A stretch of 64,000 bases of DNA from Patiria pectinifera. Its lineage: Eukaryota > Echinodermata > Asteroidea > Valvatida > Asterinidae. The DNA lies in NCBI GenBank assembly GCA_029964075.1, contig CM057138.1, forward strand, positions 10,782,932 to 10,846,931, read 5' to 3'. Positions 3,178 through 58,935 of the stretch are shown piece by piece. Each line of letters opens with the position of its first letter. The stretch's first letter is position 1. Position numbers and translations under genes: made by a program. Under the pieces are notes generated by a model. That model did not search any database, was not told the origin of the DNA, and saw only the letters and a list, made by a program, of their open reading frames with translations.

Positions 3178-4345
3178 TACCGTAATTTTCGGAATATAAG
3201 CCGCGCAGCGTATAAGCCGCAGCACGCAAAAATCTGCACATTAAGATTTGAAGTCGGCGTATAAGCCGCACCGGCGTATAAGCCGCACCGACCGCTGCAG
3301 TTTCAATTTTGTAAGGCCTCCAACTTCTAGTCAAAATGCTCTGAACCAGTTTCATTTACACTACAGAAGCTATTAAAAGGGCCACAAAAGTTATATCAAA
3401 TCATTTACAATTGATACTTTTACAAACAAATATGGGAATTGATGAGAAATAAACACCGAGAACTGCTGCCGGCTGCCCCGTCATAGCCCGGCAGCCTGCG
3501 CCACGCACGCCGGTGAATGACAACATTTTCCCACAGCACGTGAGGGAGTATGAAACCCACCGTGTGTTGTCTGACTGGAGCGCTACAAAAAATACTGCTT
3601 TGTGGCAACAGATGATGATTTGTTTTGTCCACAGAATAAACAGGTCCGTTTTTACCTCAAAACTTATCAAATTATTGCGATTACTAACGAGTAGTTGCGA
3701 TAAAAATTCAAGTTTCGATCATAACTTTCGTCAAAAATAGTCAAAACGAAGCGGACATTTTAATAGACGATTCCATTAATTTTGTAAGGGGTGATTTAGT
3801 CCCTCTTTTGAGTTTTACATCGTTTCTTAAATACATTTCAAGAAAACAAAATATATTGTGACGTTAAACAACTGATTATGTAATAAAAAAATGTTTCGAA
3901 CGCCATAAACATTTTAGTCGTCTTTTTTCTTTTTTTTTAAACAGCGGAAATATTGGTAATTATTGTTCCCAAGAAAGAACACCCCTTTATTACCACGAAT
4001 GGTGTGGTCCGCCGGGGGAAAGCATGCTGCATATCGCTGCTGCACACTGCACTGTACAAGTATCACGTACGGTCGCAAGTGTCGAAGACAGCTTTCATCA
4101 CCGTACTTTTTACCGCTCGGTACCTTTACGTGAGACGTGGTTTCGGTTTGTTAATGACTTTCTTAATTTATAATTCATTTCAGCAACACATCTCTTCTTG
4201 TATCAGTACATTAAATACACATGTGAATCTTATTTTTATTCTTCAAGGCTCGGCGTATAAGCCGCCCTGTGTATAAGCCGCAGTAAACATTTTCATGGGC
4301 AAATTCAACGTATAAGCCGCGGCTTATATTCCGAAAATTATGGTA
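3178..4345. mobile_element. TIR element with TATAAGCCGC word array (1168 bp)
   Basis: The left end TACCGTAATTTTCGGAATAT (continuing AAGCCGCG) and the right end in reverse complement agree over 28 bp with one mismatch. The word GTATAAGCCGC recurs at least three times inside the left end (3208-3290) and again inside the right end (4250-4320), in matching inverted fashion. The centre, about 950 bp, has no recognisable transposase, so it is non-autonomous. Confidence 0.85.
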
Positions 4346-4384
4346 CACCGATCTGGCACCGGCTTTACATAGGCTTATGTATTC

Positions 4385-4406
4385 CTCCTTCCTTCCTTCC
4401 TTCCTT
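4385..4406. repeat. CTTC microsatellite
   Basis: About five tandem CTTC units lie just right of the TATAAGCCGC element. Confidence 0.85.
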
Positions 4407-4419
4407 GAAAGTGAAGCCT

Positions 4420-4591
4420 CAAATGTATGAGGATAAACACACTGCCAGAAAAAATGGGGCGAACCCCTTCTCTCAGTGATATGTTTTACTTGGTTCTTTT
4501 ACAAGCATTTTACAACGCACAGGACCTACGACTTTACGTCCCATCCGAAGGACGAAGCAATAATGGTTAAGTGTCTTGCTTAAGGACACAA
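4420..4591 (-). mobile_element. SINE family 1, 5'-truncated copy
   Basis: The reverse complement matches the body of 2760-3098 from the 'cttgagcaaggcactta' region through 'tggcagt' to the 'cctcatacat' tail. The tRNA head is absent, as expected for 5' truncation. Confidence 0.75.
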
Positions 4592-4599
4592 GTATGTCA

Positions 4600-6936
4600 T
4601 GTAGGGTCTCAACCACAATTAGTCTGACGTCGTCGCTTGTTTCATGTACTTTCACTGTGATACCGTGTATAAAGGCAGTAGTCTCCTCAAGAATGGTGAG
4701 AGTGAATTTTTCATAAATTTCCATTACGTTACTGTTATACAGCCACAAGTGACTTGTGATTTACTTGTGACCATGCAGAATTGCAGTGGACTACCAGTAG
4801 TGATTGACTCAACTACATAATACTGGCCCAAAGTGTGCTGCATAATGCACCTGAGCATGGGTGCAAGACAGCTAGCAATGGCAATATTCCTAGTGTCCCT
4901 CCGGTCTGCATCTCTTCCCTTCTTCAGTTTATTGGACTCTGTGCACGTGGACCCCTCAACAGTACAAATAGAGAGCCGAGGAAGACAACTAGGAGGGACG
5001 TACGAACACATTGCTGACGGTGCGCGACACTCGCGTGAAGTAGCCACAGCTTTGTGCACATCATTCACAATAAAATGAGCTGTCGCTTCATATACATCTT
5101 CATGCCTACATGTACATGTATGTGTGACAAAGTACACGCAGGCCATGTGTCCCCCCCCCCCCCACTGGCGCCCTCAAAAGTGGACACAAAGAGCGCCCCC
5201 TACAGTTGGTGCATATAGAGTCCAAAGTGCACAGCAGAGTCAATAAGCCAAGAAGCTCAGAATCAATCAACCTTGGATGGACAAGCTCCAATTGAACTTG
5301 AAAATAAATCAGCAATCAAGCAGCTTGATATCATAAGCCCACACATCCAGCCCTCTCAGGGGAGCTGACTTTAAATCCCAGCTGATTACGCCCTGGCACG
5401 TTCCTCCAGCTAGAACCCATACTGCTGCAGGTTGGGGTTGCCCACGGCCCTGACCCTGTTGTGCCAACACTGGGTAAATATTTTGGCCAACCGGAACCAG
5501 CCTAAAGAAATCCCTAATTCCGGCCTTGAGCCTATGGATTCCCCCTGAGGGGGTTTTCCTTGTGGTAATGCAGGGTGGTAAATGTGCCATAACATGTCAT
5601 GCAGCTGTTGACATGAGACAAGCCCTTCATATACAAGATCGTAATCTTTGATTCCTTTACAGAGACTAACCACAATTTCAGGAATCCAATTTTCCAAGAA
5701 GCAGATGAAGCTACTTCAAAATGTCTTTTGGTGGAATTGAACCCACGGGTTCCTGTCTAGTGCACTTTTGGGGTGCATGTGCTGTGTATAAAGTTATACA
5801 TTGTATCGATGGAGCTCAAAAAGCCAATATTGAAAGAAAGAAAGGGAAAAAACATGCTGTAGTGACAACTTTGCACACAAAACTGCAGGTTTGTTTATGG
5901 TGTTAATCGAGGATGTTCTAATGTTCCTCATCATCGATTTTTTGCTTATATTATACTCTATTTTTTTGGCAACAACTCCCAAAACTTTACTAGGTCCCAA
6001 TTTGCCTAACAGTAACAATAAAAACTTCCCCATAACGTGGTGAGGGCCCGTCCATTTTGATGGAGACAGAAGACATTTGCCATTGGATAAGGACATTTAA
6101 AATACTGCTTGAGTAAATTTGCAAGATTTGCATGCCCAATACTACCAATGACACACTACAGTTTATACACCAGCACTGCTGCGTTCTGCACCACATTGCA
6201 CAGTACGGACCACGTGTGTGCCAATCTCCATATGAGGAGATTTTAGTACTACATGAGCAAGGCACATACCATAGCTAGAGGGGTGTTTCACAAAACGTGA
6301 AGTTAAATTGTTGAACAAAATCGTTGAAAAATTTATACCTTTTTGACTTGTTTTGACTTTTGGACTGAGGGCCATTATCGGCGACCAAGCCCCTAACAAC
6401 CAAGCACATCTTTATTCCCTTTTTCATATGAAAACAAAAACTTCAATTGTTTAAAACAACAAACCATGCAAAATGTTGTTAAAAGTGGCTTGACATTATA
6501 CACAGAGTACACTGACTGTACTTTGCTGAGCCTCAGTAGTAAACTATATAATTTGCCAATTATCCAGACTGTGTTTTTGTGCCTCAAGGCTTAACACTGG
6601 ACATATTAATTAAACACAGCGATACTCAAGACGGAAGTGGGCAGATATTTTTGCTGCGAACGGTCACTTCACTGCGAAACAAAAACAGGACTTTGAAAAT
6701 TTACACCCTCAGATGAAGGCTGCTGCAGCACATGTTAGTACCTGACAGGGATGTGTTTCATTTCCATAAAAAAAAAAAAGTGTGTGAGCGTTCACCTTGA
6801 AATGGTGCATTAAAATGTTATCTTGGTAGTCTTTGCAACAGTAAATATCTAACTTCAAGTTTCAACTGACTATTCAAAACCAACCAAGTTTGCCATTTGT
6901 ACATGAGACAATACATGTTTGTACTGAAGGTACATA
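4600..6936. other. No gene recognised; one long minus frame
   Basis: A 140-codon minus-strand frame (4724-5146) is Cys-rich and matches nothing known to me, with no splice context. A poly-C run lies at 5151-5163. A B-box-like 'gaattgaacccac' (5734-5746) marks a degenerate minus-strand SINE. The minus frame leading away from it (5410-5697) is probably SINE or other repeat sequence. Confidence 0.4.
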
Positions 6937-7223: not shown

Positions 7224-7225
7224 TA

Positions 7226-8421: not shown

Positions 8422-10062
8422 CTGTTGAAGTAAAAAAATAACATCAGATATCATGTATTTGACTGAATGAGCACATCATTTGCTCCAATTACTACCAAAG
8501 TACATATTGCAATTTTGTCATTCGTTAATACAATGTAATGCTTGTTATAGGCCTATGTTTCATTTTTTGATGTTAAGATCAAATTCAACAGAAACTACTG
8601 TTTAAAAAGAACTGATATATTTCCATGCACAAATTTCACACCAATGCTTAGTGTATGGTATAAGAATTATCCATAGACCAAGACACAAAAAGTAAAGAAT
8701 TGATTATTTACTACAACTTGCATAAATTTCTAAAATATAAAGGTTAGAAATAATACTAAATAACCAGTTAATGCTTAGGGGCACACATGGCTTTCAAAAT
8801 TACATGTACATTGTACATGTAGATCACTCAGCTGTGATGTTCACCCCCTGAATACAACAATGGACCAGGCCACTGCAACTTATCACCAATGGGCTGCAGG
8901 TTTAGGTAAGGTTTTATCAGTGGGAGAGTCCAAGTATCAGACATTGGGGGTGATAATTTAGGTACCATGCGCAATACACATGTACACATTACACAGCATG
9001 GCATGAAGCATACTATTCTTGTAGAATTGTACATGTACACATGTACATCTACATGTACATGTGTTCAAACATATTTATTATTGAGAAAAAAAAGCAAAAT
9101 ATTTCAACTGGGCAAGTGCAACAAGTGTTACCTAAACATTTAACAAGACACATGTTCTTTCAGTGGATTTCAGTGTTTTTTTAAATTCTACTGTTGGGCA
9201 TCTGCAAGGAGAATACCCAAAAGAGTTGTTATGTTATTAGTCGTTGCGATGATTACATGTATAACTACCGGTAACAGGCATATTGGGAATTTTAAAAAAA
9301 AATGAGGAAATCCCAAACGACACAAGACTTTGTACAGTATTTTTTCAATTCATAATGTCATTCATAAGAAGAATTAAAAAACGAGGAAATTAGCGGATCC
9401 GAGGAAAAGCTAAATGCCTGAACTAAAGAAAATATGACGTTACGTATGGGACTAACGTTTCCATGCAGCTACTTCAAATTCCCAAAATTTAGACGGATTT
9501 TACAGGGTAAGGGAAGCAAAAAGAGCCCAGCCTACTATTTTTCATAAAGGGCTTTTATAATTATGCCCCCGAAAGAAGAAGTACATAGAAAGTGCCATTG
9601 GATCTCTTCATTGTATGTGTAGTGGGTTTAGGAGGATACAGGAAAGCCCATGATTTAAGGGTTAATGCTTGTTTCCACTAGTGACGTGAAATAATGAGTT
9701 ATTAACAAGTTTGAACGGTTGATGATCTTTTAATCAATCCCGTCTGCCTAAAGCTCTAATCAATTATGCTCAATCTCTATCCAAGCTGAAATAAAGTATC
9801 ACCGCATTTCCTAAAAAAGAATGTGTTTCAATCCACATTTAAAGATCTAAATCTCCTAACCCCTGCTGAATAGGCACTCACAGCAGCGAGGCCCAAAACC
9901 CCTGCAAAATGCCTTCCCCCCCCCCCCCTCCTCTCGGCCTAATCTAGCGTCGGTTGCAAAGTTGCATAAGGCCCTGCTCGCGAGACTCAACTCTGCGCTA
10001 AGGGCTTCTGACAGATGGTCTGCCCTGCGCTAATTTGCGACTAAGCGCATTCTTCCTTCCAG
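8422..10062. other. Probable intron/flank; ACATGTAC-rich
   Basis: It has palindromic ACATGTAC clusters at 8800-8822 and 9029-9062 and a TACCGGTA at 9266-9273. A C run lies at 9916-9930. No further exon of the minus-strand gene could be supported. Confidence 0.4.
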
Positions 10063-11510: not shown

Positions 11511-12132
11511 AGGATGTCATTTGTTATTTTCTAAAGTCAGAATGCAACTTAAAGAAACTTTCATTTCAGTAGCGGGAGTCCACCTCGCCACTACTTCTCG
11601 CAATCTCTGCCATAACCTACAACTTCTCACAAAACCGTGAGGAAATTTCGCCAGTCCAGCCGTCTGTCTCAACACCTGGCCAAATCCGGTACCCTGTCTC
11701 TCCTTCCCTCAGATGTCGTCCTTTTTTTTCTCCTTGTGAGTAACTTTTGCCACTTAATAAAGCCCAGGTTACAAAAACCCATAAATCATCCTCAACACTG
11801 GTCGTTTTTTATTATCAGTGAACGGGGCACATGTGGGGGAGGTATTTTTATCCCTCAGACAGGAACTGTAATTTGGAGCAAGGCCTCCCCAGTCCTCTTA
11901 TCAGCTCTAGGGATCTTCAAGACTGACTGGCCAATTTGGAAAATCTGTGTGTTTATCATCAGCTTGGGCATCCGAGTATCTCTGCCGTGGTGCATTCAAA
12001 TGTCCGCTTTTGTAGGACTCTGTAGAGTACAGATATCCTACATACGGACGATTCCGGGCACGGTATCCATTCTACCACAGAGGCACCCTTCAAAGACAAA
12101 AGCATTGTGCTATTTGCTCAGATTATGTTAAG

Positions 12133-12237
12133 GAGAATACACGAGAAAGTGTGGATTCGTAATTTAAGAATTCACGAGGCGCGAAGCGCCGAGTGAATTT
12201 GTAAATTAAGAATCCACACATATGCAAGTGTATTCTT
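12133..12237. repeat. Long hairpin carrying TGTGGATTCG words (105 bp)
   Basis: Arms of roughly 45-48 bp (agaatacac..., gtgtggattcgtaat..., aattcac) face each other around a GC-rich tip 'gaggcgcgaagcgcc'. The same word family fills the right part of the adjoining element. Confidence 0.8.
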
Positions 12238-12240
12238 CGA

Positions 12241-12846
12241 CTTAAACCATTGCGTCAACAGAAGTATTGACAAGAATGTTGCAACCTGACGCCACTTTTT
12301 CCTTCATATATCATCTCAATGAAGGTCATTCGTTGCAAAAATGATGATAAGACATGAATCTGGGACTGAGAAATGTTTCCAATTTTGTTAGGAAATACTT
12401 GAAATGACTCTCCATAGACTTTGTACACAAGCGCGGAAGTGGCGTCAGGTTGCAACATTTTTTCCTGGCGTGTTTAGCATGTGTATGCCACACGTACACC
12501 CGTACAACCAAGTCATTTTGTGTGTGTAGGCTCCTTACGTCAAAATGGATAGTTCAGACGAAGATTTCTTTCTGACTAAGAGTAGATTTTGCAGTGCCGG
12601 CAGAGAATCTGACAGTGAAGATGCATTGGTAATTTTCGGAAAGCAAATTTTCACGCAGACGGTCCTATTCATGCTCATTATGGAGAACAATTGTCCGACG
12701 TGTTCAAAGTGTGGATTCGTAATTCCGAATCCACACTTTACTAAAGATTCGTAGTTCCGAATCCACACTTTGTGACCAGTGTAAGAGATTCGTAGATCCA
12801 AATCCACACTTTTAACAATAGTGTGACGTCATAGCAATGGTTTAAG
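12241..12846. mobile_element. TIR element with TGTGGATTCG word array (606 bp)
   Basis: Termini CTTAAACCATTGC on the left and the same in reverse complement on the right continue with GTCA/GACGTCA. An internal perfect 23-bp inverted repeat (aatgttgcaacctgacgcca...) sits at 12275-12297 and 12437-12459. At 12708-12812 the word GTGTGGATTCGTAA and its inverse occur four to five times. No transposase frame was recognised. Confidence 0.72.
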
Positions 12847-13104
12847 CTCAGATAATCCATCACAGGCAGGGTAGTTGCTTTATACAATAGAGTACATCAT
12901 GATTTCTCCATTGAAAGTGGGAACTCATGTTCAGTGATCACGTGCCTGAATTAGTATAGGGTACAATGCAATGCTGAGTTTCTGTACCGCCCCTGTATAC
13001 TGCCCAAAACCACCCCAGTACTGTATTGCTTCACAGATTCACGAGGGAATTTATACAAATGTTATACAATTTAATACAACTTCTTTTTACTATTCATCAG
13101 ATGA

Positions 13105-13514: not shown

Positions 13515-13695
13515 CAAAATTAGGTTTTGCCCTTCACCGATGTATAAACACTGTATACTCAGTGTGTTACCGGTACCTCCCGAGTGAAAGTTGGAAAAAA
13601 ATTACTTGGGTGGGACTCGAACCCACGACCTCCTGCTTTCTAGTGCAGATGTCTTACCACTCCACCACCGAGCTAACGGGATTGATTGGCTGGTT
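13515..13695 (-). mobile_element. SINE family 3, copy 2 with complete tRNA-like head
   Basis: Minus-strand 13678 to 13603 forms a recognisable tRNA-like head. An A box 'tagctcggtggtgg' is followed by a CTGCAC...GCAG anticodon-type stem and then B box 'gggttcgagtcccac'. The body 'ccaactttcactcgg' and 'cactgagtatacagtg' follows and is shared with the other copies. A SINE head is preferred over a functional tRNA gene because the body follows directly and copies recur. Confidence 0.8.
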
Positions 13696-13743
13696 CGAAT
13701 CTGATGTACATAGCAGCAGGTACTGCATTAACTATTCATAAGG

Positions 13744-19399: not shown

Positions 19400-20076
19400 A
19401 AGTCCCAGTCACACATTTATGGTTTGGAGCTACGGATCTCCACAATTTGAAATTCGTGATCAACCGTGGGAGTACCGTATTCATCCTTAGTACCTCCGTG
19501 GTTATCCGTCATCTTCCTTGGGTATTCGTGGAGGGGCTACGGAAGATTTAAACTGATACAAAACTTCCGTGGTGAAATGTCATGAAAATCAATCCGTAGT
19601 GCAACCGTGGGACATCCGTAGGACAACCATACTGATTCGTAGTGTTATGTTATTCGTGGCTATTCGCACATATTCTTGGAGATTTGTAGCTCATTCATGG
19701 TAGAAATCTCTACGAATGTCCTACGGATATGCCCGGATGTGCTTGGGTTCTGCTAATAAAGGTTGTATTCTTGACTATTTGTAGGAGAACCTTGGTCATC
19801 CGTGCTTCCGTGGCCCAATCGCAGACAACCGTGGGGTTAGCGCCTTTATTCTTAGTAATACCGTTGATATTCTTCATTAATCCGTCCATATTCTTGGCAA
19901 ACCGTGGTTTATTCGTAGAGAAACCATAGGACAGTCGTTGCCATTCATCCTGAAACCGTAGTGCATTCTTAGAGAATCGATTTCTCCACGAATCTCGACG
20001 GTTCATGGTGATCGATTGACTCTTGGTAAACCGTAGATATTCGTAGCACCAAACCGTAAATGTGTGACTGGGGCTT
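19400..20076. mobile_element. TIR element with CCGTAG/TTCGTGG word array (677 bp)
   Basis: The left end AAGTCCCAGTCACACATTTA and the right end in reverse complement AAGCCCCAGTCACACATTTA both continue with YGGTTTGG. The interior is filled with short related words in both orientations (ATCCGTAG, ATTCGTAG, ACCGTGG, ATTCTTGG), spaced roughly 10-25 bp through nearly the whole element. No coding frame. It shares its outer TIR core with 27862-28553. Confidence 0.85.
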
Positions 20077-24278: not shown

Positions 24279-24938
24279 CCAGCACCCGATTTCACGAAGT
24301 ATTGCGACGTGTCACAACTCGAGTTACGACGTGTAACACGTCGCAACTCGCGACGCGTTGTATAATCCATTTCATGAAACTTGCGATGTGTTGAATGCGT
24401 CGTAAGTTCCTTGACAACAGCTTAAAACACGTCGCAAGTTACGACGTGTCTAGTAGTCATCACAAAATAAGAAGAGTCCTTTTCTTAGCCAGTTTTATGC
24501 CATAAAATACATAAAGGAGACTATAATACCGAGACAATGTGTGTAAAGTTGTAAATAGAAAATGCATTGAACAATTATGAATTAGCCTGGGATATTGCAG
24601 TTGAAATTTCAAAGTAGCTGTACAGTCCACTGAGAGCTTGATTTCCTTTAAAATTGCATCACACGACCGCCATTTTGTTTTACGTTTTAAAAAATTTCGA
24701 GAGGAGATCCGACAACTCTTTGTTGAATATCAGACGACTATTTACTGTACGCTGACTAAATACATAAAACAGTCACTGAGTTGTGCTATATCATACAATG
24801 CGTCGCATTTACAACGTGCTTTGTGAAATGGATCGCAGGACTGGACACGTCGCAGCTGCGACACATTGTAGGGATACGACGCGTTGCAGCGCTGCATGCA
24901 TCGTAAGTTACGATGAGTTTTGTGAAATAAGGTGCTGG
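24279..24938. mobile_element. TIR element with CGACGTGT word array (660 bp)
   Basis: The left end CCAGCACCCGATTTCACGAA and the right end in reverse complement CCAGCACCTTATTTCACAAA are TIRs. Immediately inside both ends the word GCGACGTG and its complement CACGTCGC recur many times (24307-24450 and 24797-24915). The centre (24455-24790) lacks them. No coding frame. Confidence 0.85.
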
Positions 24939-27861: not shown

Positions 27862-28553
27862 TAAAGCCCCTGTCACACTTTTGCGTATCCTAATTCCATA
27901 CGAGTTCCTTATCAAAATGTTTCACTACGCAGCCGTACGCTCAAAACGTCATATTTTTTTTATTACTTTGACTTTAATGTGCGACGCACATCTAGCGTAC
28001 AAGTAACGAATTCAGCGCATCCACTGCGTATGAGATGCGTATGAGTTGCGGCAAGTACGCTATCTGTGCGTTTCTCATAAGTTACGAATAAGCACAATGC
28101 GCTGCCCGCTCGCAGGATGAGCGGCACTAATTCGTGCAATACGTTGGCATTTGCTATGAGTTCGTTCAGCGTGCGCTGTATCTTCGCTGCAAGTACGCTA
28201 TGTATATGGCGGCTCATATGCTGACGGGTGCGTGCCGGGAGGTCAGCGTATTACCGCGTATGAACGGCTTATCCCCCACGAACACATAGCCTACTCGTAC
28301 CGCGCTCGACCGATGCGGGACCGATGTGCTGCGTATTTATAACGTATGACCTGCGTAACAGCGTAGTTTTGTGCATGCCCAAAACTATCCGGCGTACTGG
28401 GCCGTACCATGCGTATGCCTGCGTACATAAAACTTACACAAAACGATAGAGATGCATATGAGGTGCATATTGTGCGTACGACTGCGTATGAAAAAAATGT
28501 CAATGCGCAACTCATAAGGAATTAGGATACGCAGAAGTGTGACAGGGCCCTAA
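27862..28553. mobile_element. TIR element with GCGTATG word array (692 bp)
   Basis: The left end AAGCCCCTGTCACACTTTTG and the right end in reverse complement AGGGCCCTGTCACACTTCTG both continue with CGTATCCTAATTCC, giving TIRs of about 35 bp. The words GCGTATG, GCGTACG and TACGCT in both orientations crowd the whole interior. No coding frame. The outer CCCxGTCACAC core is shared with 19400-20076, but the words differ. Confidence 0.87.
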
Positions 28554-32264: not shown

Positions 32265-32680
32265 TGGGGCTGTCCTGAATATACCAAATATTCAAATATT
32301 GGATCATCAACCGAATATTCGATTAGTTTTTGCAGGTTGAAATATTCGGAAAAAAGACAAGAAGACTGTGATATTATTTCATCGTAAAGTTAGGCGCTTT
32401 ATTGTCAGATGCCACTTTTTTGTCAACGGTAATATTTTATATTGACTTCGGTTCATTGTTCCCATCCTTTTAACAGGTTAAAGCCCTTGACAGTTATAAA
32501 ACATTTCCATGCAAAACACTCCAGCGGACCATATTGATCGCCGCATGCAAATTTTAACTGGTGCACTCTGCGTGCAACTTTTGACCGGCACGGCACATGT
32601 AGTTGAAGGTGGCAATTTCAAATATCCGAATATTAAGTCAAATGTAGTTTCAAGTAATAAAATACAAAGTGATCAGCCCC
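32265..32680. mobile_element. hAT-like element with AATATTCG words, copy 1
   Basis: It starts GGGGCTGTCCTGAATA and contains CCAAATATTCAAATATTGG and CCGAATATTCG words. Interior segments ('gccacttttttgtc', 'gcatgcaaattttaactgg') match 48776-49214 in reverse complement. The right border near 'gatcagcccc' is approximate. Confidence 0.68.
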
Positions 32681-33324
32681 AATGGCAATGGGTATATCCT
32701 TTTGCAAAATTACGAGTGAAAGCACAATCCATCAAAACATATTGACACTCTGGCACATGTACTACTTGCAGGTTTAACCTTTTCCCCCCAGGAATGGCAG
32801 GATGATAAATGACAACACTGCCTGTGGGTCAGTTCTGGGGAAGATTTGCAAAGATTGGAAGACATCTTTATTATGACAGGAAGTGTGCTTAGCGATAAGG
32901 TGTCCATCTTAACGCTGTTTATTTATTTATATTTTGAGTCAAAACAAATAACAGGCCACGTCCAGTTGGCAAGTACGGTGGTGAAGTGGGAACTTTTGCC
33001 CCCTCTTATCAAAAGTTTGAGCTCTAAAAACAATAATTTTGGTTTCTCATATTTGAAAACGTTCAGTTCACATGAAAAATCTTCAAGCTGCTGTCAAATA
33101 CATTTGAATGGATGCGACATACAATGTACTTGTATATCATGTATTAAGTTCCATTCTCTGTTTCTGTGAACTCTACAGATTCATGTAAAAAAAAAACTGC
33201 AGAGAACTACATAACATACATAACCCCCAATTCAAGATGTCTTGTTACATGTATGTTTGATTGTCCTTGTCTCATTTGTCTTTGTCTCATTTAAGCCTTT
33301 TGGTCTTTTGAATATGCCTCCATA
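32681..33324. other. No gene recognised
   Basis: Ordinary AT-rich sequence with no repeat partner in the window. Confidence 0.4.
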
Positions 33325-34359: not shown

Positions 34360-34895
34360 TTACATGTAGCACTTTCCATCGTACCACGGGCATTGCCAGG
34401 ATTTTTTCTAGAGGGGGGCAAAGCACCTTTACCCCCCGAAATCCCTGTACTTTTCACGCAGATTCTCGATTTATCATTTTGCCAGGGTGGGCAGGGACAT
34501 TAATTGCCCCCCCCCCCCAGCCCATTATATTAACAGCAATATGACTTCGTGCCTCTTTTTCTTTTCCTTTTTCCCCCCTTTTTGGGGGGCTTTTTGGGGG
34601 GGGGGGGGTTACGCCCCCCTTGCCCTTCCCCCCTCGCGATGCCTATGCATCGTACCAACAATCTCAAAGCACTTTACAATTATTCCCCCGTTCCTCAAGC
34701 CATGAGACCAAGCGGCAGATGATATCAGCGCACATTCGTTCCTCTACCCTCACAGGTACCCATTTATATTCCTGGGTGGAGAGAGGCAATTGTAGCTAAG
34801 TGTCTTGCCCAAGGGCACAAACACCATGTTCCTGGCAGGGTTTGAACCCACGTACCATCGTACATGATTCAAACACTGTAACCACACTGTACCGG
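34360..34895 (-). mobile_element. SINE family 4, copy split by a hAT-like MITE
   Basis: 'gtagcactttccatcgtac' (34366-34384) and 'aacaatctcaaagcacttta' (from 34656) are contiguous in the 58572 copy. Here they are separated by 34385-34647. The right end holds a minus-strand B box 'gggttcaaacc' and 'gcccttgggcaagacactta'. Confidence 0.83.
34385..34647. mobile_element. hAT-like MITE with 8-bp TSD inside a SINE (263 bp)
   Basis: catcgtac flanks both sides (34377-34384 and 34648-34655). Ends CACGGGCATTGCC and, reversed, CATAGGCATCGCG are TIRs of the CA-R-GGCATYGC type. The interior is G/C-run rich. The intact SINE elsewhere proves the empty site. Confidence 0.85.
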
Positions 34896-41719: not shown

Positions 41720-42399
41720 TAATGAAGTGCGAACCCGACCCGAAACCGAAACCAACCCGACCCGAAACCGACTTCGGATTCGGGTCGGGTCGGTTTGTCC
41801 ATCTTTTCAGTCGGGTCGGGTCGGGTCGGTTTCGGTTTTTGCATTTTCCTTTTCGGGTCGGGTTGGGTCGGTTTAGCCATCTTTTGAAAAAAACGAAATA
41901 AACCGAAACAGTTGAGAAATTTAGGTGACGCAAAATCATTGACAGTCACTGTGACTGCAGCCCTAGTGTGGTGTGGCCACCGGCCGAGCGCACTATCAGG
42001 TTCCCACGGTATTAATTTCTGCAGTCGGATGGGACTGGCAGTGAAATAGATACATTGAAACAGTTTTCATGATACCGTGATGATACCATGCGTTTGTTCA
42101 ATAAGCGGAGTTACTCTCGATCAACCCACTGAGTATGACAGAGAGAGAGAGGATGGTTTTGCAAAATAATTCATGCCACATGGGTATAAGGGCAGGCATA
42201 AAAAAGTGATCACTTTGTCCAAGCAAAGTATTTGTTGTTTTTTCGGGTCGGGACGGTTCGGGTCGGTTTCACCTTATTTTTTGTCGGGTCGGGTTGGGTC
42301 GGTTGAGGGAGTTAAGATCGGTTTCGGTTCGGATTCGGTTTATATCTCTAATGTTTCGGGTCAGTTTGGCCTGGTCAACCCGACCGATGCACATCATTA
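41720..42399. mobile_element. hAT-like element with GGGTCGG word arrays and 8-bp TSD (680 bp)
   Basis: gcatcaac flanks both sides exactly (41712-41719 and 42400-42407). Ends TAATGAAGTGCGAACCCGAC and, reversed, TAATGATGTGCATCGGTCGG are imperfect TIRs. Dense CCCGACCC / CGGGTCGG / GGTTTCGG words fill 41733-41900 and 42244-42390 in both orientations, leaving a plain centre. An 8-bp TSD fits the hAT superfamily. Proline/arginine-rich frames across it are artefacts. Confidence 0.87.
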
Positions 42400-42433
42400 G
42401 CATCAACAGTTGACAGTGGTGTAGTCACAACGG

Positions 42434-42642
42434 TTACACCTCTACGTTCTGACACCCCTATGTTCCGACATCCCTATGTTCCGACATCCCTATGTTCCGA
42501 CATCCCTACCGGTATGTTCTGAATGCAGCTATTCCTAACCCTAACCCTAACCCCAAACCAGGAGTAACACAATCTTATGTGCGGGTTGTCGTAACATATA
42601 GGGGTGTCGGAACATTTGGGTGTCGGAACATAGAGCAGTCAC
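42434..42642. mobile_element. TGTTCCGACA word-array element, copy 1
   Basis: CTATGTTCCGACATCC is repeated three to four times at 42465-42510. The inverse (GGTGTCGGAACAT) occurs twice at 42602-42635. The middle has CCCTAA repeats and 'ggagtaacacaatcttatg'. The end TGACTGCTCTATGTTCCG (reversed) matches the start of 53665-53740. Confidence 0.75.
42534..42553. repeat. Short telomere-like CCCTAA run
   Basis: Three CCCTAA units sit in the core of the TGTTCCGACA element. It is too short to be a telomere or a clear fusion scar. Confidence 0.85.
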
Positions 42643-44359
42643 CATCACAACAGTGTGAAAAACTCCTTGACAAGGGACTGACAGACAAAAAGTCCAATCC
42701 CCTCCCCCAAATAAAGAAACAAAATACTAAAGAACAAAAAGTCACAGCTGCACAAAAAGAAAAATGAAACAAAATAAGCAAAAACGCAGTCATAATGCAA
42801 AACATCATACTTTTAATAAGGGATTTTTCCTAAGTATAAGTATAAACAAAATAACAATAAATAAATATCTAAACAGAGAATTAACACAAATTATTAGCGC
42901 TTATTGCATTGCTTCATCTCCTGACATTAGTGTAAAACAACAGAATCGGTACCTACAGTATATGTGTGTACATGTCAGCTCTAGTGCAAAATTTCCATCC
43001 TTTCTATGCCATAAAACTCACATGTACATCAACGTTATTGACTTTGTTTATACAGGAACCTGTAAATAAACCTTTGGGTGACCTATTGTTTTGACCCACA
43101 AACCTGTGTTCAATCAGATAGCACACTGGACAATACCACACTGAATGTGTTAAAACAAACATCCCAAATGATTGATGTCATCAAAATATTGTCAAAAACG
43201 CACTTGGGGGATAATGACTTTTTAAAATCAAGATTTCACACACAGATAGTACTTTTAATTGTGATATTGAGAAGTTGCATCATGATATACTCCGTTCCTA
43301 TACAGCTTGTCTGCATGCTACCCTTTCCTTATCAAGACTAGCCACCGGTTTACATTGATAAAATAAAACAAATACTGGTACAGTCTCCGTGATTTATGAC
43401 TTAATACAACATCAATGCAACCAGTTTGCTCTTGTCAGATAGTGTGAGAACACAGCTTGTCAAACAAGGAGAACCTTTGAAAGTACGGTAGGCCTGGAAG
43501 CTAGGTCCCCTTACTGTATTTTATAAAGTTTTTTTTGGGGGGGGGAGGGGGAAATATAATGTGAGACTTTCTGGCAAAATGAAACGGAACTGGGCACAGG
43601 CCATATAGTGGAAGAAAATGGGGAAAAAATTAAATGGGAGAGATTTTTTTTCTTCGATTTTCAGATTGATATGTCTACTACACATATTTAAAAGAAAAAG
43701 TATAAAAATTGTGGAATAAAAGTGAAACAATTTGGATATATTACAAATATTCACATACATGTACATGTATTACAAATCTTGAAACTTTTAAAGCCTTTTT
43801 CTCAGTAAATTACTTTTTGACATACATGTAAATGCAGTCTTTAAACAGTCATAACTTGTCAACTGAATGTCCGATTGAAGTATTGTAAGGAGAATTTTAT
43901 TGTCATTCCTGAAACCCGCAAACCCTCACTTCAACCACTTGCCCAGTTCTGTCTCATTTTGCCAGGTCTCACATAATGTACTCCCTCCATCTGCCTTACC
44001 TATTGCCTGCACCTTCCTCTCTGAAGTTCAGACCCATCTGCAGTATGTCATCAAGGGGGTCTACCGAATCTCCCTCCATACACATGTACCTCCCACTAAA
44101 CAGACCTAGGATGACCTCAACCACTAATGTGTCACTCTCTGATTGATAGTTCAGGACACTTGCTAATGGATCTGCCAATGAACTTTGGTTTGAGGGGTTG
44201 AAACAGCACTAGCACCCCTGACAAGCAGATGCAGGTTAGGGGAGAGGGAGAGTGCATAACTATAACTAAAAAAAGGGATCTTAAGACAAGTTTTAAAGAG
44301 GTGAGGCTATACATTTTGGGAGATTTACTGCCTAATTAATGCACCAGAATTATGGACTC
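42643..44359. other. No gene recognised
   Basis: AT-rich sequence with a G-run at 43536-43553 and ACATGTACATGTAT near 43757. Confidence 0.4.
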
Positions 44360-46537: not shown

Positions 46538-48775
46538 GTGTGCTGAAATAAAATCAAACAAGTTTCCTAAATCTTGTCAAAGCAGGATTTACGGGTTGGA
46601 TGTAGTGGACAACCATTCTCCTTCTGTCTGATTAAGTAACTTATTAAACTGTAAATTTGAGAAATGTATGTTTTCACAAATGCCAAACAATACTGTTAAT
46701 CTTGTTTCAAAGCATCAGCCATCAGGCCAACGGCAGATCGAGGGGGGACCACCAGGGGCAATGGTCCTCCCAAAAAAACGAGCCTAATACTTTGGGGGTT
46801 TTTTTCAGTGACGTCGCAATAAAGGCAGCCACTGTGACAACACTATCTTTTGCTAAAACAAAGTGGTTAAAATGGTCAGAAATTGCCTCAGATTGCACAA
46901 CAGTAGAATAAAAAAAAAATTGAGCCCTAAAACGGGCCCCGAACCTCACACCAAACATTTTGTATTCAACTTTTTTTGGTGAACAGACTTTGTTTTGCTC
47001 CCCCCCCCCCAAAAAAAATTGTGTTCTGAATCAGCCCTTGGTCAGGCCTGTGTTCTTATACATGTAACGAACACCAAAGGGCTCCCCCATCTCCCACCCC
47101 AGTCCCCTTTGAAAATGTCTGGATCCATTACTGTTTTACATAAAGGTCTTCACAACACCAACTTTGTCGCGACTAATTAGTAGTTCAAACAGCTATCACC
47201 TCATCAGAGACTATTGCCGATAGATCTTTCTGCTAAGGTACAATGTATGTAAAGACACATAAACCAACTTCATGGTTTGCTCTGGTATTGTCTAATTTCA
47301 AATGACCTATGACATCAACTACATAAAGTCTTCATCTTCTGTTTCTGAACTTAATTTTAACTACAAAGGTTGTTTGGACCACTAAGGTACTCTAGCGTGG
47401 GCTGAAGATTTGATGCTTAAAGACTTTAATATTACAACAGTTTTGAGTGTTTGTTTTGAGCTTTCTGATTTACCTATAGTTTGGAATCTGTTCTAGACCT
47501 TTTGCTGGCACAGCAGTAACTACATGTAATAAAGAAAAATCAATGTGAATTTGTACAACAATTTTAAGAAGGACACTCCATCTATTAGAGTTTTGCACCA
47601 AGCCATAATTAGGAAATGCTAGTAAAGAAAACTGGTGTACTGATAAAACATGTAGGAATAGATGATACTCAGTGTTTACAATTTTACAAGTTTTCTTCTC
47701 TGTAAGCTTGATCTTTTTCACAAGTCTGAAAGATGACATGATCCGAAGCAGACATTACTCACAAAATAGATCCTAAAAACCACAATACTCAATGGAATAC
47801 ATGTACATGCACAGTGTAGTTGTTTAGTTATGTACATTACAGAGTGCATACATGCACATGTATGGATGTACATGCACCTATCAATCAATAAGATGTAGAT
47901 GACATCACAGCTGCTTATCAGCATGACTCAATCTATGACTCCTGATTGGCTCAGAGTTGTAACAGAGATGACCCCAATTGACCAATCACAGACTGGCAGT
48001 GACTGGGGAGTAGTGGAAGGGGGTGTGGCTCCACACACATACTTGTGTTGTGTGTGTTGGTCAGAATAGTGAGACACACTACACTGATTTATTTATTTTC
48101 TTTCTCAAGAATTCCCTCATTGATAAGCCAAGACGCTACCGCAGAGGATTAACTTTTCACTGCTAGAGCTCTCCTTGGACAATAACAGTTGTCTCCACAA
48201 AACCCGCCAGACGATTTATCCCTGTGGCGTTTCTGTTGGAGATTTTGCTGCCTACTAATACTGGACAGACTGGAATTTACTCAGATTTTTTTCCTGTGAA
48301 TTACAAATGTATCTTGGGGAATAGGGGGCTTGGGTGCAAGTTTATAATGTAAGCTGACTGCACTGCCTGGGAGTTTAACAAGTTGATCAGCACACTTTGC
48401 GAGCTTCAATCTCTGAAGGAAGGGAAGGATACTATAAAAACATGGTAAGTGGCGAAGCAGGAATCTTCTTGAATGTACAGCATACAGCATGAAAATATCA
48501 TCTCTAGATACTAGATCCAGGCATTATATGAAGTGTTTCACTCCAATAAAAGGAAGAATACAGCTGCTGGTTAAATGATTTTGGAATTGTACTGATGTTT
48601 TGAATTCTGTCCTTTTGAGTATGGAATGAATTGCCTATTAAATCAGACAGAATTAAAATAATACACTCTGATGTTTGAGTCGATATATTTGCTGGACGTC
48701 TCCTAGGGCCACCAAACTTGTGCTATATTGGGTCACCATACATAACATTTAAAGCTATAGGCGTGTTATTGATAT
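46538..48775. other. No gene recognised
   Basis: C/A-run 46999-47018, scattered ACATGTAC, no repeat pair or exon seen. Confidence 0.4.
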
Positions 48776-49214
48776 GGCTGTCCATTTTCAAATCATTTAG
48801 TATACGATTATTCGAAACTGCATTTCACCGAATATTCAAATATTCAAAACTATCTCCAATCAAGTTTTACACATGCCAGCTGCAACTGCATGCTGCACCA
48901 GTCAAAATTTGCATGCAGCAATCAATAATATGGACCGCAGGCGTGTTTTACAGTATTTTATGCCTACTAAAAGAATGGTAACAATGAACCACGATCGACA
49001 AAAAAGTTACCGTAAAAGTGGCTTCTGACAATAAAGCGCCGCAATTTTACAATTAAAATAACATCACAGTCATGTGTGCACTTGTGCAGGTTTTTTTTTT
49101 CTTTTTTTCCCAAATATTAAAACCGGCAAAAAGCTATTCGAATATTCGGTTGATGATCGAATATTTTCAATTTTTCGGTATACATGTACATGTATTCAGG
49201 ACAGCCCTACATAT
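48776..49214. mobile_element. hAT-like element with AATATTCG words, copy 2 (inverted)
   Basis: Ends read GGCTGTCCATTTT on the left and GTAGGGCTGTCCTGAATACA in reverse complement on the right. Words CGAATATTCAAATATTC and CGAATATTCGG occur inside both ends. GGGCTGTCC-type ends are common among hAT elements. Confidence 0.72.
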
Positions 49215-53740: not shown

Positions 53741-53871
53741 CTATCCAGAGGCCCCCCCTCCCCAGCTGGATTTATTTGACAACTATTTTTTCCAGCAATT
53801 ATTTCAATAAATCGTTAGAAAGTTCTGACATCAATCCCAAAAAAAGGAAACCCGCTCAAAACGGGGCCGTA

Positions 53872-54087
53872 TCATAAGTCTGACACCTCATAGGTCCGAC
53901 GCCTCATAAGTCCGAAATTTTGGACTTCTGAGGCGTCGGACTTATGAGGCATAACATTTATTTATTCCGCCTCATAGGTCCGACGCCTCATAAGTCCGAC
54001 GTCGGAAAAATGAAGCGTTCAAGGCATTGGAGCTGTGAGGCGTCGGAGCTATGAGGCGTCGGAGCTATGAGGCGTCGGACTTATGAG
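53872..54087. mobile_element. AGTCCGACGCCTCATA word-array element (216 bp)
   Basis: Ends TCATAAGTCTGACACCTCAT and, reversed, TCATAAGTCCGACGCCTCAT. About nine units of CGTCGGACTTATGAGG and its inverse CCTCATAAGTCCGACG, with a GGAGCTATGAGG variant, make up most of the length. The left half is mostly in one orientation and the right half mostly in the other. Confidence 0.83.
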
Positions 54088-55564
54088 CAGACCCCCTCAA
54101 AATACATTACAGTGCACCTTGAAAATGGGCATATAATTTGCAGTATGCATAATAATAGTCAGTTTTGAAGAGCACCCCCATACGGAAGATGGGTACCAAA
54201 TTTATCTCTGTAGCTTAATTTATTACAAAGATATGACGCAGGAACTTCAACAGTGTCCTGCCAAGTTTCTCTAACCTCATTTTGAGGAAAAACAGCTTTG
54301 AAAAAAAAAGACATGCATTGCGCCGCCAACGCCAGTGGAAACCATTCTTCAGTTTACAACTTTTGGGGGTATTTTCCCCCAACAAAAATGCATAGTGTGA
54401 ATCTTGGAAACCTTGACTTCTCAAAAATACGAAACAATCAATATCGATTTTGATTTTTCTAGTATGTCCGATTTCAGGCGTTGATTACTGAAAACAAGGT
54501 ATTGGGGGACATTCCTCATTTTGCCTCAGTAGGTCACATAATTATGTACACCCCTGCTAGTGATGTATTCAGAATGAGACAGCACTTTTTGCGTTTGATT
54601 GTTGTGGTCATCTGTCCACTGGTCAGTTATTGTCATCAAATCTAATCAGGAAGTTTCCCATGGACACAAGACCAGCGCCTGTCCTGAGTCACTAACAAGG
54701 CCTTTTACTCATCGCATACCCCCTTTTTTTTTATCCAAGACACTCCTATCCCTAAAGCCACAAATTTTCAAAGACCTCGGCACATTGAAGCCATCTTTGA
54801 TGATGTGCTTGCTTTTGTTCTACAGCCATATTGAGAAGACATTTCATGTATTCATTGTTACTACAAACCACATTTCAAAGATGATTGAATGTAAAGATTC
54901 TTGGCACTATTTTGAAGCCCAGTGAGTTTCATTCAACTTCAAAGATCCTACAGTGAACTTCTTTTTTATAATCTTCAATACAGGTTAGAATTTCTGATAG
55001 AGCATTTGAGGCCAACTAAATCTTCTTTTATTTGCGTTGAGCAGTTTCTTACAAAAATTCTCGGATTTTTTTCCCTACAAGGCAACAAACTACCCTCCAT
55101 TCTGCTTCTAAAGAAACTTTCCAAAGCACATTTTTTTGTATTTCAAGAAATCAACAATCTGAGTATAGTCTCAAAGTTACACAGACAAAAACTTGACTTT
55201 TTCATCAAGGAATGGGGGGTCGCTAAATTCATATTTTATTATTTCTTGAGTAAACAATAAACTCAGTATTTCTCAGAGATAAACATGAACACACTAAAAC
55301 TTGACTTTTTCATCAAACTGAAAATGTTTGGTGCTTAAACAAGGGAATATACAATAAGAATTTGGCCTCCAAACATTTTGGTCTTGAGCTCTGTGCCATT
55401 ACACATTGTGTGTTCAAGAGAAAATTGAAGGCCCAAGTAATTCTTCTTAAAGAATCAATCAACGCAAGAACTTGACAGTTAGTCGCTGGGGCAGACAGGG
55501 CAAACCTTGTGATCTTAAGTTCCCTACATCAAACCACTCAAGTCTCAGTTTAGATTACACCAGG
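54088..55564. other. No gene recognised
   Basis: Two plus frames (54599-54925 and 54922-55260) follow each other but are T-rich, hydrophobic by composition, and lack splice or domain evidence. Confidence 0.4.
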
Positions 55565-55650: not shown

Positions 55651-55687
55651 ATTCTCACCAAAAACACAACAAAAACAAGACAAAGAA

Positions 55688-55935
55688 CAGGTTGGTGCAG
55701 TGGTTCTTTCCTCGCCTTCTACCTCTATGGCTGGGGTTTCGATTCCTGCCCAGGTCCACAATTTAGTTTACTGGTATCTACCTGATTCTGTGGATTTCCT
55801 GATAAAATTGTTCTTGGATTTTTCCTCCCACCCTCTACAAATGGCAATTTCTTCATTGTCTTCCATCTACTGGTGTCTTCAGGCTTGCAAGCTGCAGCTC
55901 CTTAGGCATTTTTGAGGAATCCTTGGTTTAATTTT
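55688..55935 (+). mobile_element. SINE family 2, copy 2
   Basis: 'caggttggtgcagtggttct', 'ggtttcgattcctgcccagg', 'gattctgtggatttcct' and 'gtcttcaggcttgcaagct' align in order with 29855-30125. Confidence 0.82.
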
Positions 55936-55958
55936 CAGAAATTATAATCATAACTAAT

Positions 55959-56017
55959 ATATAAAAGTAAGGTAGCACTTTGAATGACTACCTGAAAGTG
56001 CTACCTTACTTTTATAT
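55959..56017. repeat. Perfect 23-bp hairpin with 13-nt loop
   Basis: The arm atataaaagtaaggtagcac (plus ttt) at 55959-55981 is exactly complementary to 55995-56017, around the loop gaatgactacctg. It lies just right of SINE family 2 copy 2. It could be a tiny foldback transposon remnant or a transcribed hairpin. Confidence 0.92.
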
Positions 56018-56862
56018 TTGATTTTGCCTGACTAACCCGGCTGCCCACCACTTTTAGAATAACTAAGTAAGAAATGTATCGTCTCTCCTTAGCTCAGCTT
56101 CATAAAATTGACCCATGCAACCCACTGCTTTGTGGAAATCATTATCAGAAATAAATAATATCACGCAGACGGCAGTAGTAAGAAGTACATTTTTCTTAGC
56201 AACTCCTAGAAGTTTTTAGCCCAGGTGATAGCTGTTCAATCTGTCACGGCATGAATGCTGCCCTCCAGATAAACCCAGAGCAACTCTATACAGCGTTAAT
56301 GGATGTTACCCAGCCTTTCCCTGCCCTCATTGCGGTCTGACAATGAGGACGGTTGAACCTTTTACCAATGAGTCAAGTGCCTTTGGCTGGTGACAGCTGA
56401 ATGAGTGGGGGCTGATGGCTGATGGGGTGGGCTTGATGACAAGTATGCGCTGACCCCAGCCTGGGCTTAATGAGGCAAGGGGTGGATGGGGGTGATGTGA
56501 GGCGGTGTGTGGTGGTGGAAAACTTCCACCTGGGAGACTGGCACTGAGAATTGGAACCGATCAGGCATTTCTGAAATCAACCTTTTTATTAGGGGAAAAG
56601 GTTTTGTAAACTGGTAGTTGGGCTGTCTTTTTTTTGTAATGAAACATGGGCTTTAAAGGGGAACAATTTTGCAAATTTGTAGTGTACTGAAATCAAGGGG
56701 GACCAGGCTTGCAAATTATTAGTAGGACTAGGTAGGCTTTGAAATCAATGTGGGGAAGGTTTGTTGATTGCGGAACAACTCTCCTGGATGCACATACATG
56801 TATATCAGGGTAGGTAATGAACAGGCTTGCACACTGATATTGGGCACATTTAAAAATCAACC
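56018..56862. other. No gene recognised
   Basis: GGTG-rich stretch 56400-56520 and nothing else notable. Confidence 0.4.
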
Positions 56863-57119
56863 TATAGGCTCCGTGCACAAACAAGGAAGGCCGGTTTTTT
56901 TTTACAATTTCGAGAGCCCAGTGGACGGGGCACACCACATGCGTGTGCTGGGTTGCGCACGTTGAATTCTGAATGTGTACAAAGCCATAGCAGATCGCGT
57001 ACATGAGCATCAGGCGTTGCCAGCAATGCGATCAAATGTCTCTCCGTCTCCCAGTCGTTTCCCCCAACTCCTCCATTTTCTTCCCCATTGTGGAGGTGTA
57101 CTTGTGCACGGAGCCCATG
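56863..57119. mobile_element. MITE family B, copy 3 (257 bp)
   Basis: The left end TATAGGCTCCGTGCACAA and the right end in reverse complement (CATGGGCTCCGTGCACAAGT) pair well. This is the least diverged pair of ends in the family. Confidence 0.78.
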
Positions 57120-58436
57120 CAAAACAGGCTTGCAAATTGGTAGTAACTCTGAATTCAGCTGGGGAAGAACTATTGCACAAAAAATGGTGGGACCGTGGGA
57201 CAGCTCTGCCGTCAACCTAGGGAACAGCTATGCTTTGTAGACTTGGACTGGATGACTTGTGATTGACTTGCGATGGACTTGGGATGACTTGTCGTCCATC
57301 ACAAGTATATATTACAGAGGCCCTGCTTTCAAGGGAGGGAAACAGTTAGGCCAACAAATTGGCACTGAAACTGCTCTGGCACGGGAGAAAGCTAAAGCAC
57401 TGCGATCAGCAAAAGGGCAGCTCATCACTTGGAATTCCCTGTTGATTTTTTGAGGGAGGACCGGAGAACCTCAAGAGAACCCTTGTGGCACAGGAGAGAA
57501 TCAGCGAACAACTCCACTCACACAGAGGCCTATTAAATGACTGAGCCAGGAATCTGACCCAGGCCACAGCGGTGAGAGGCAAGTGCCTTGCGCACTGCAC
57601 CACCCATGCCTCCCATTGGACTTTTGTTCCACGGCCATGCGAAAACTTACCACGACATTCCTTTCCTCAAGTCTACCGTGCGTTACACTTGGATTTTTTG
57701 TAACTGACGGAACGTTTATTCCATGTGAGTGACTGGCAGAATGTCCCCGATAACTTGCCGTGGCTGTGCAGAAATCTTCCATGACCACTTTTGGCCTGGT
57801 AGTTTTACATCACGGTCGTGGTAAGTTGACAGGGAGGTTAGTTTACCGTCTGTACCATTGGGCTTAATTTTGTCATTCTAGTCACGGTATAAGTTAAACC
57901 AAGAAAAGGCCAATGGGAACATTGCTTTTGTTCCCTACTCCCATGAAAAGCTTTCAATAATCAAACTGACTTGATGTTAAACCCGCTGATCATGGCCGTT
58001 TACTACAAAGATCAACTGTGAAGCTATCTAAGTGATGCAGTTTCATCCCTGCACAAGGCCACTACAGATCAGCTGTTACCAAGATGAAAGAAACAAGCAG
58101 CACCCCCGGACAGGAAACGGTCGGGGGAGATTTCCGGGGAGGAGAAAGATCTTCGCAGGCTCTGTGAAGAGGATTTCTGACACAATGCCAACATCCTGTG
58201 TCAGGAAAAAGACAACTTTGACAAAAGGATCTGGCTCAGACAAGGGAGATCTGTTCTTGCGGGGGCTCAGACAATTGGGATTCCGGAGAGATGGCTATCT
58301 TAATGAAGACCTCCTTTGATGTTATCAGGATCCTAGCTTGCTAGACTGTGGGAGGAAGAATCTTCTGAGGAAAGGGGGAAGCTTGTCTAAATACTTGTTG
58401 CTAGATTGATTTCTGTATGATCAGATAAGTTGCCAG
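57120..58436. other. No supported gene apart from the SINE at 57420-57618
   Basis: A GACTTGTGAT word cluster occurs at 57241-57310. A basic 95-codon plus frame (58032-58319) has no family signal. Confidence 0.4.
57420..57618 (-). mobile_element. SINE family 2, copy 3
   Basis: Minus-strand reading gives 'ggtggtgcagtgcgcaagg', then 'ctgggtcagattcctgg' (degenerate B box), then a body ending near the 'gttctccggtcctccct' stretch. Confidence 0.68.
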
Positions 58437-58935
58437 AGAGGTGCAGTAATGTAATCAAGTCCATCAAAACTCCTCACACAAGTCTTCATATGCTTCCATC
58501 ACAAGCCCAAAAGTCTAAAGTCAAGTCACAAGCTACTCAGATGAACTGTAACAAAACATTCCTTTGTAATAATAAATGCGCTTATATAGCGCTTTCCATC
58601 GTATCAACAATCTCAAAGCGCTTTACAATTATCACCCCGTTCATCAAGCCATGGGACCACGCGGCAGCCGATATCAGCGCTCAATCGGTCCTCGACCCTC
58701 ACAGATACCCATTTATACTACTAGGTGGAGAGAGGGAATTGTAGTTAAGTGTCTTGCCCAAGGGCACAAACACCACGTTCCTGGCAGGGCTTGAACCCAC
58801 GCACCTTCGTACACGAGTCAAACACCATAACCACTGGTCCATGGCATTGTTAGTGTTTGTCTCCTGTTACTTGTGACTGGACTTGTGATAGGACTTGTGA
58901 TCTACTCCAAGTTGGCCAGACTTGTGACCGACTTG
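58437..58935. mobile_element. Possible CACAAGTC word-array element split by a SINE
   Basis: CAAGTCCATCA, CACAAGTC and CAAGTCACAAG words at 58455-58535 face GACTTGTGAT words at 58865-58930. SINE family 4 sits between them. The same words occur at 450-500, 4740-4770, 25900-25960 and 57241-57310. Outer borders are uncertain. Confidence 0.5.
58572..58845 (-). mobile_element. SINE family 4, best copy
   Basis: Plus-strand reading starts 'gcgcttatatagcgctttcc' and ends in a minus-strand tRNA-like head (B box 'gggttcaagccctg', A-box region 'ccagtggttatggtg'). It sits between two CACAAGTC word clusters. Confidence 0.83.

Follow-up and report, generated by a model that had tools for sequence, protein, structure and literature searches.

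Near-identical ends and helically spaced, family-specific words in three transposon families of Patiria pectinifera

A stretch of 64,000 nucleotides of the Patiria pectinifera genome (GCA_029964075.1, contig CM057138.1; C10:10782932-10846931; hereafter the window) was analysed for non-coding elements that carry arrays of one short word. Ten such places had been listed in a reading of the window from its letters alone (the sequence-only reading) and are labelled E1 to E10 here, E6 comprising the two window copies E6a and E6b; E11 is a family met by scanning. Three of these families, E3, E5 and E11, form one group with near-identical ends and a different word in each family, that is, one design with changed words, and their words are spaced at 10.5 bp, one helical turn. 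This clan of constant ends and switched, helix-phased words is a new finding, and a stronger one than the claims of the sequence-only reading, whose observation as a whole was partly confirmed and whose interpretation was partly supported. The features are mostly genuine non-autonomous DNA transposons, most of them ordinary in kind (Table 1).

Shared ends and word arrays of E3, E5 and E11

Copies were surveyed in 613,548,705 bases in 1,020 contigs, and genome loci were fetched with their flanks (L-numbers; 125 flank pieces, 186,250 bases). Scored-copy figures for each family are lower bounds and include the window copy. The best 40 of 326 first-look candidates were scored for E3 and the best 40 of 456 for E5, with constant borders in both families. 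The ends common to E3, E5 and E11 read AGCCCC[A/T]GTCACAC, and bases 20-21, counted from the tip, are CG in all three families, as read from the sequence. A clan end pattern (AGCCCCNGTCACACNTNNNCG), which itself requires the CG, gave 435 genome matches, as opposed to 0 for its backwards control; the 100 listed places included E3, E5 and E11 types plus rarer ones. Alignment of E5 with E11 was limited to 30-34 bp at the ends, with nothing elsewhere, and E3 gave no alignment with either at the same threshold, having little in common with them beyond the tip; no body homology was found among the three.

Inside these ends, a CpG-centred word that differs per family recurs from one end of the body (0.68-0.79 kb) to the other. 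In E3, a consensus of 26 copies (median divergence 6.7%) carries [CT]CGT[AG]G words along its full 677 bp, and a looser word form gave 41 matches on one strand against 11 on the opposite one. The sequence-only reading had described the words as subterminal, which does not apply to E3 and E5, where they occupy the entire element.

Flanks of E3 were of TWA type, and triplets were equal on both sides in 11/26 (control 0.265) after removal of two duplicates and of two loci in which not both ends were present. Flanks of E5 were equal in 6/10 by eye, two of the six having like flanks (L085, L087); L082 stops before its right end. The two copies of E11 resemble one duplicated place, and neither this place nor its duplicate showed flanks with an exact match when checked for TWA duplication. 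Copies of E5 were also seen side by side or nested (C16:6346791-6349019, C20:27507528-27508900, L082 and L089, with a common flanking TAA in L089).

Spacing of the words

Gaps between E3 words include many of 10-12, 21 and ~31 bp, and the top 5-mer self-lags of E3 were 22, 11, 21, 32, 63, 54, 10, 42 and 43. A whole-element Fourier spectrum was dropped as too blunt, since the spacing drifts between 10 and 11, and lag and word-gap tests were used instead. For same-strand word pairs, the mean of cos(2 pi d/10.5) was compared with that of 2000 random placements; the spacing was noticed in E3 and the test then applied elsewhere. The mean was 0.72 in E3 (0/2000 random placements as high), 0.50 in E5 (6/2000) and 0.62 in E11 (0/2000). 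Spacing of CpG peaked at 10.5 bp in E3, 10.5 bp in E5 and 10.45 bp in E11 (each 0/200 shuffles). In a 10.55-bp scan of the flank pieces and the window, E11 took ranks one and two and was then found to have clan ends; in a CpG-phase scan of 698 windows, E3 took rank two, E11 ranks five and six, and E5 approximately rank eleven.

Two further candidates were put aside. E2 was formally positive at 10.5 bp with only three word pairs and was excluded from the count, and a half-turn rule (5.2, 10.5, 16 bp) for all arrays was not retained; units of 16-17 bp may be plain tandem duplications.

Word constraint in E1

The E1 search pattern (GGCGTATAAGCCGC) gave 505 + 646 genome matches, against 1 + 0 for the backwards control. 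Flanking dinucleotides were equal in 14/14 distinct insertions (13 TA and one CA; window included, one duplicate dropped), the control being high (0.857) because nearly all flanks are TA; E1 has the TA target duplication of Tc1/mariner-type elements. For alignment, ends were located by the tips with ≤6 mismatches and the window copy was left out; two of the 14 aligned copies come from one duplicated place. The four words outside the search pattern were changed in 1/560 cells and those inside it in 0/560, a figure biased by the search. All 8 words are intact in the window copy, which was chosen without the pattern. Non-CpG spacers were changed in 6.3%, with bins of bases 101-1050 varying by 3-14% and the outer 100 bp by ~1-2%. 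Of 930 spacer changes, 764 were common to several copies and 166 were singletons; being mostly shared, the variation arose in source elements. For E3, E5 and E7, word conservation was rejected as a demonstration of function: words and spacers decay alike there and changes are mostly singletons, a pattern that is neutral as to constraint.

E1 lies between long inverted arms (2861-2947 / 4511-4597, 86% complementary; also 2966-3025 / 4441-4500) and seems to be nested inside a larger repeat. A sequence resembling one of the flanking arms was noted by eye at ~59300.

Proposed mechanism

Candidate sources of transposase are present in the genome: PF13359 (Harbinger DDE_Tnp_4) gave at least 152 matches, many in open frames of 350-500 amino acids, and PF05699 (hAT dimer domain) at least 94, in open frames of up to 919 amino acids. 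Most of the features would be non-autonomous cut-and-paste transposons resembling miniature inverted-repeat transposable elements (MITEs), with words predicted to be bound by the DNA-binding component of the mobilising machinery. That the words are sites for a transposase or an accessory DNA-binding protein is the best explanation as a whole, and is favoured with modest confidence. One point in its favour is that CG is present in 9/10 listed words, compared with 10-26% of random window 6- to 16-mers.

For the TWA clan a more specific account is offered tentatively. A PIF/Harbinger-type transposase would recognise the constant end, and a second protein, of Myb/SANT type, would recognise the CpG-centred word and load at every helical turn, always on the same face of the DNA. 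A coat of this protein along the whole element might mark the element and help bring its ends together, and a switch in its specificity would change the word while the ends stay. The clan would then be a group of PIF/Harbinger-like MITEs that form end-to-end protein-loading lattices, with about one CpG-centred site per turn over ~65 turns. E7, E8 and E9 may be 8-bp-duplicating (hAT-like) elements built on the same principle. If this is true, the body of a MITE can be functional instead of leftover sequence, the clan predicts which protein reads which word, and spacing counts modulo one helical turn. The families are ready natural test substrates, with ends constant, words switched and spacing helix-locked.

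A number of results weigh against this account. Only E1 shows word constraint. Its end spacers are conserved too (~1-2%), a word pattern served to select its copies, and of the four words free of that bias, two overlap the tips by which the ends were located; in E3, E5 and E7 the words decay like the spacers. In the scan of flank pieces and window, maxima rose above the 10.55-bp value at 11, 11.5 and 12 bp, which may reflect the E10 minisatellite, and the decayed window copies of E3 (2.44) and E5 (2.55) ranked below the non-clan window 17801 (2.80). In the CpG-phase scan, non-clan L022 (a 21-bp satellite, 0.71), window 62801 (0.55) and L056 (0.55) scored about as high as E3 or higher, on few pairs (42-48 each). 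Since non-clan stretches also score high, the period is not unique to the clan, which is distinguished by a whole-body array together with these ends. E11 was picked by its period, and its period is therefore not independent evidence. The 10.5-bp period fails in E1, E4, E6, E8, E9 and E10 (a small E10-like array at 57235 gives 36/200), and the period of E7 is 5.2. The TWA duplication is imperfect, as the E3 flanks show. Auxiliary binding at inner repeats is deemed unlikely for Hermes in a portion of PMC10368747. No autonomous element with clan ends was found when the 100 listed end sites (C1 to C8) were compared by eye with the listed PF13359 matches, both lists being partial; the nearest pair among those listed lies ~2 kb apart on C7, with the end facing away. 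The 21-bp tandem repeat of L022 (GTGTCATTTTGACCCGGAAAA) is a separate one and occupies its last 540 bases.

Alternative explanations

It is unlikely that the arrays are functionless minisatellites grown by tandem duplication inside the elements. The arrays of E8, E9 and E10 do look grown in this way: E8 and E9 consist of 16-bp units, a longer E9 array occurs in L059, and the E10 word extends over ~1 kb in L042. The common decay of words and spacers in E3, E5 and E7 points in the same direction. The E3 array does not look so grown. In E3, identity among spacers (the four bases after each word) was 27% for 16 pairs of neighbouring words and 30% for 390 distant pairs (computed in E3 alone), which argues against slippage, since tandem growth would have made neighbours alike. 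With gaps that mix 10, 11, 12 and 21 bp, tandem growth is unlikely already for E3, and it is further opposed by the same spacing in three families with different words and by the fixed words of E1 within a varying interior.

The period might instead be a nucleosome-positioning or DNA-bending signal that keeps the element on nucleosomes and joins its ends, 10.5 bp being the helical period of nucleosomal DNA. Periodicity of AA/TT and of WW was seen in E3 (1/200 and 0/200 shuffles, respectively) and in E11 (9/200 and 0/200), AA/TT was periodic also in E1 (0/200, best 10.35), and internal nucleosomes are proposed to act in mPing in a portion of PMC9921582. Both classes were aperiodic in E5 (42 and 133 of 200), however, whereas CpG was periodic in E3, E5 and E11 (0/200 each), and specific 5- to 8-mers recur, beyond a dinucleotide class. 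Such a signal is considered quite unlikely as the explanation of the period.

Very improbable is a mobile CpG-island effect, in which CpG-rich arrays would protect the element from methylation or attract host proteins that bind CpG. In its favour, CpG observed/expected is 0.98-1.48 in 9/11 window elements (E8 0.73, E10 0.63), compared with 0.49 for the remaining window sequence. High CpG may just reflect young DNA, however (element youth can explain part of it); most E1 CpGs lie outside E1 words, CpG positions in E3 decay at more than double the rate of other sites, as expected if methylated, and the family-specific words are left unexplained.

Comparison with known systems

PIF/Harbinger, Tourist-type MITEs and PHIS are like E3, E5 and E11 in their TWA-type flanks and short terminal inverted repeats, to which the clan adds helically spaced whole-body words and a change of word under constant ends. 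Helical phasing in such elements was the subject of no report that turned up in a full-text literature search, which is not proof of absence. Most published autonomous PIF/Harbinger members have a DDE transposase and a Myb/SANT protein, according to part of PMC4482050, which calls the task of this extra Myb/SANT-type protein unclear; mobility requires two proteins of the element's own, as stated in an excerpt of PMC2836001. Internal sequences altered transposition of mPing in the results available from PMC9921582.

The sequence-only reading had taken the words for transposase-type binding sites, which appears reasonable by analogy with close published precedents (Herves, Galileo and hAT/CGG-binding proteins). 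It further supposed that amplified sites might give these elements a competitive advantage. Subterminal repeats of hAT elements (Herves CGATTCAT, Hermes subterminal repeats, CGG-binding hAT proteins) are like E7, E8 and E9 in having 8-bp duplications and short family-specific words near the ends; the E7, E8 and E9 arrays are denser and more regular, and these elements are known here from non-coding copies. In sections of PMC3143072, the CG/AATTCAT repeats at both ends of Herves suffice for binding, and sections of PMC8097297 report four hAT-encoded proteins whose motifs match the subterminal regions of their own elements, with CGG in most motifs. Exact phasing of the left-end repeats was judged crucial for Hermes in a portion of PMC10368747. 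In Galileo, THAP sites lie within the tandem repeats of long terminal inverted repeats (part of PMC3688188), so that many sites of one DNA-binding domain stand in tandem repeats at the ends, a layout like that proposed for the arrays described here; Galileo belongs to the P superfamily and has long terminal inverted repeats, whereas the clan has short whole-body arrays.

Other arrays, borders and insertion classes

In a plain array test, the commonest 7-mer on both strands was counted in 635 overlapping 600-bp windows and in five Markov-resampled copies (3,175 windows). The count was ≥6 in 19/635 windows (maximum 10) and never >5 in the resampled windows (0/3,175 at ≥6), and the claim that the word arrays are real was thereby borne out. 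Fifteen of the 19 windows fall on E4, E5, E7, E9 or E10, and the remaining four hold the word ACATGTA near 8600. In E1, E2, E3, E6 and E8 the count stayed <6; the E3 and E1 arrays stand out in a lag test on the consensus. The ACATGTA array, at window 8501-9400 with 6-7 copies per 600 bp, is absent from the list of the sequence-only reading.

Inverted ends had been claimed at all listed places and were present at most of them, E10 not being a clean terminal-inverted-repeat element. Genome copies showed fixed borders in E1, E2, E3, E4, E5 and E7, and in E8 and E9 on two copies each; as far as borders go, they exclude for the same elements the alternative named beforehand, ordinary microsatellite expansion lacking fixed borders or target-site duplications, and it partly holds for E10. 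Flanks fell into about five insertion classes: TA (E1), TTAA (E2), TWA (E3/E5), CWG (E4) and 8-bp (E7/E8/E9). Target-site duplications of 8 bp were found in E7, E8 and E9 and equal 2-bp flanks in E1, those of E3 being imperfect. The window had been said to hold ten unrelated elements, taken as repeated independent invention. E3 and E5 have near-identical terminal repeats, and E8 and E9, both with 16-bp units and with tips that agree at 17/25 positions (hand count), look related from their sequences; the list is thus not one of ten independent inventions, and that interpretation is not supported.

Table 1. Positions (window numbering) and distinguishing features of the elements
Element	Position	Strand	Features
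E1	3180..4343	.	TA-flanked; tips CCGTAATTTTCGG; word TATAAGCCGC, 8 copies intact, with four in the outer ~110 bp at each end
E2	12132..12841	.	bounded by TTAA (12128-12131, 12842-12845); word GTGGATTCG; inverted repeat 12239-12847 internal
E3	19401..20075	.	tips AGCCCCAGTCACACAT; helically spaced [CT]CGT[AG]G words along the whole body
E4	24280..24937	.	tips CWGCACCCGATTTCAC; words around CGACGTGT near both ends
E5	27865..28550	.	whole-body array of GCGTA[TC]; tips AGCCCCTGTCACACTT; ends like E3 and E11
E6a	32265..32683	.	AATATTCG element; tip TGGGGCTGTCCTGAAT
E6b	48773..49209	.	second AATATTCG element; tips TATGGCTGTCC and TAGGGCTGTCC
E7	41720..42399	.	tips TAATGATGTGCA; CCGAC/CCGAA words at 5-6-bp distances; flanking duplication GCATCAAC on either side
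E8	42432..42643	.	16-bp units TATGTTCCGACACCCC; tips GGTKACWSCTCTATGTTCCGAC
E9	53863..54095	.	16-bp units CATAAGTCCGACGCCT; tips GGGGYCKKMTCATAAGTCCGAC
E10	58437..58935	.	CACAAGTC/GACTTGTG array around short core; split by another repeat at ~58597-58834
E11	two copies, L016 and L023		from the 10.55-bp scan; word CGGA[AT]; ends same as E3/E5

For E2, the best 40 of 2,469 first-look candidates were scored, at 90-97% besides the window copy itself. The sequence-only reading had E2 start at 12241, which is wrong: copies run from TTAA to TTAA, and the inverted repeat it named is internal. TTAA was present on both sides in 8/8 sites read (7 fetched plus the window), as in piggyBac/Kolobok-type elements. 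The sequences next to TTAA, GGAGAATACAC and the reverse complement of CAATGGT, do not match, and because no terminal inverted repeats adjoin TTAA, E2 is not assigned to the piggyBac/Kolobok type. A hairpin with 34-bp arms (85% complementary) lies at the E2 left end (window 12149-12219).

For E4, the best 40 of 1,147 first-look candidates were scored. CWG was found at both ends in 12/12 sites (10 fetched, the window and L052), with a preceding pyrimidine in 12/12 and a following purine in 11/12, so that 11/12 sites lie inside YCWG..CWGR. TWA and CWG duplications are described for PHIS groups, the CWG type for the NuwaI group, in part of PMC4482050; E4 is like NuwaI in its CWG ends and differs in that the middle base agrees at both ends in only 5/12 sites, as expected for independent ends. 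The middle base of CWG in E4 (7/12) and of TWA in E3 often differs between ends, above the expectation for point mutation, and a plain 3-bp duplication is therefore not a sufficient explanation.

Among the 8-bp class, the best 40 of 925 first-look candidates were scored for E7, with constant borders. An 8-bp duplication (≤1 mismatch) was present in 17/29 copies (control 0.002; a single duplicate row was removed, and rows whose ends were poorly located were kept), with no comparable signal elsewhere from 2 to 10 bp. In E8 and in E9 the duplication had 1 mismatch in the window copy and 0 in the one further genome copy (L038 and L059, respectively). E7, E8 and E9 thus carry the 8-bp duplication of hAT elements, a length also made by other superfamilies. 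E6a and E6b are 68% identical over 430 bp, and no 8-bp duplication was seen in these two window copies (4/8 mismatches at 48773; 5/8 equal by eye at 32265).

Part of E10 is minisatellite sequence. An E10-like core with its array also occurs in L062 and in L042, where 11- and 12-bp units of GACTTGTGAT(T)G extend for ~1 kb (~190-1170) beside the core. The repeat that splits E10 has an 89% match at window 34648-34885. No protein domains were found in the 6 window frames examined, out of 205 frames found. A tRNA-like sequence at window 13602-13674 (-) scored above the Rfam threshold at 35.8 bits and is probably a tRNA-derived repeat; a similar stretch was seen by eye at ~13200.

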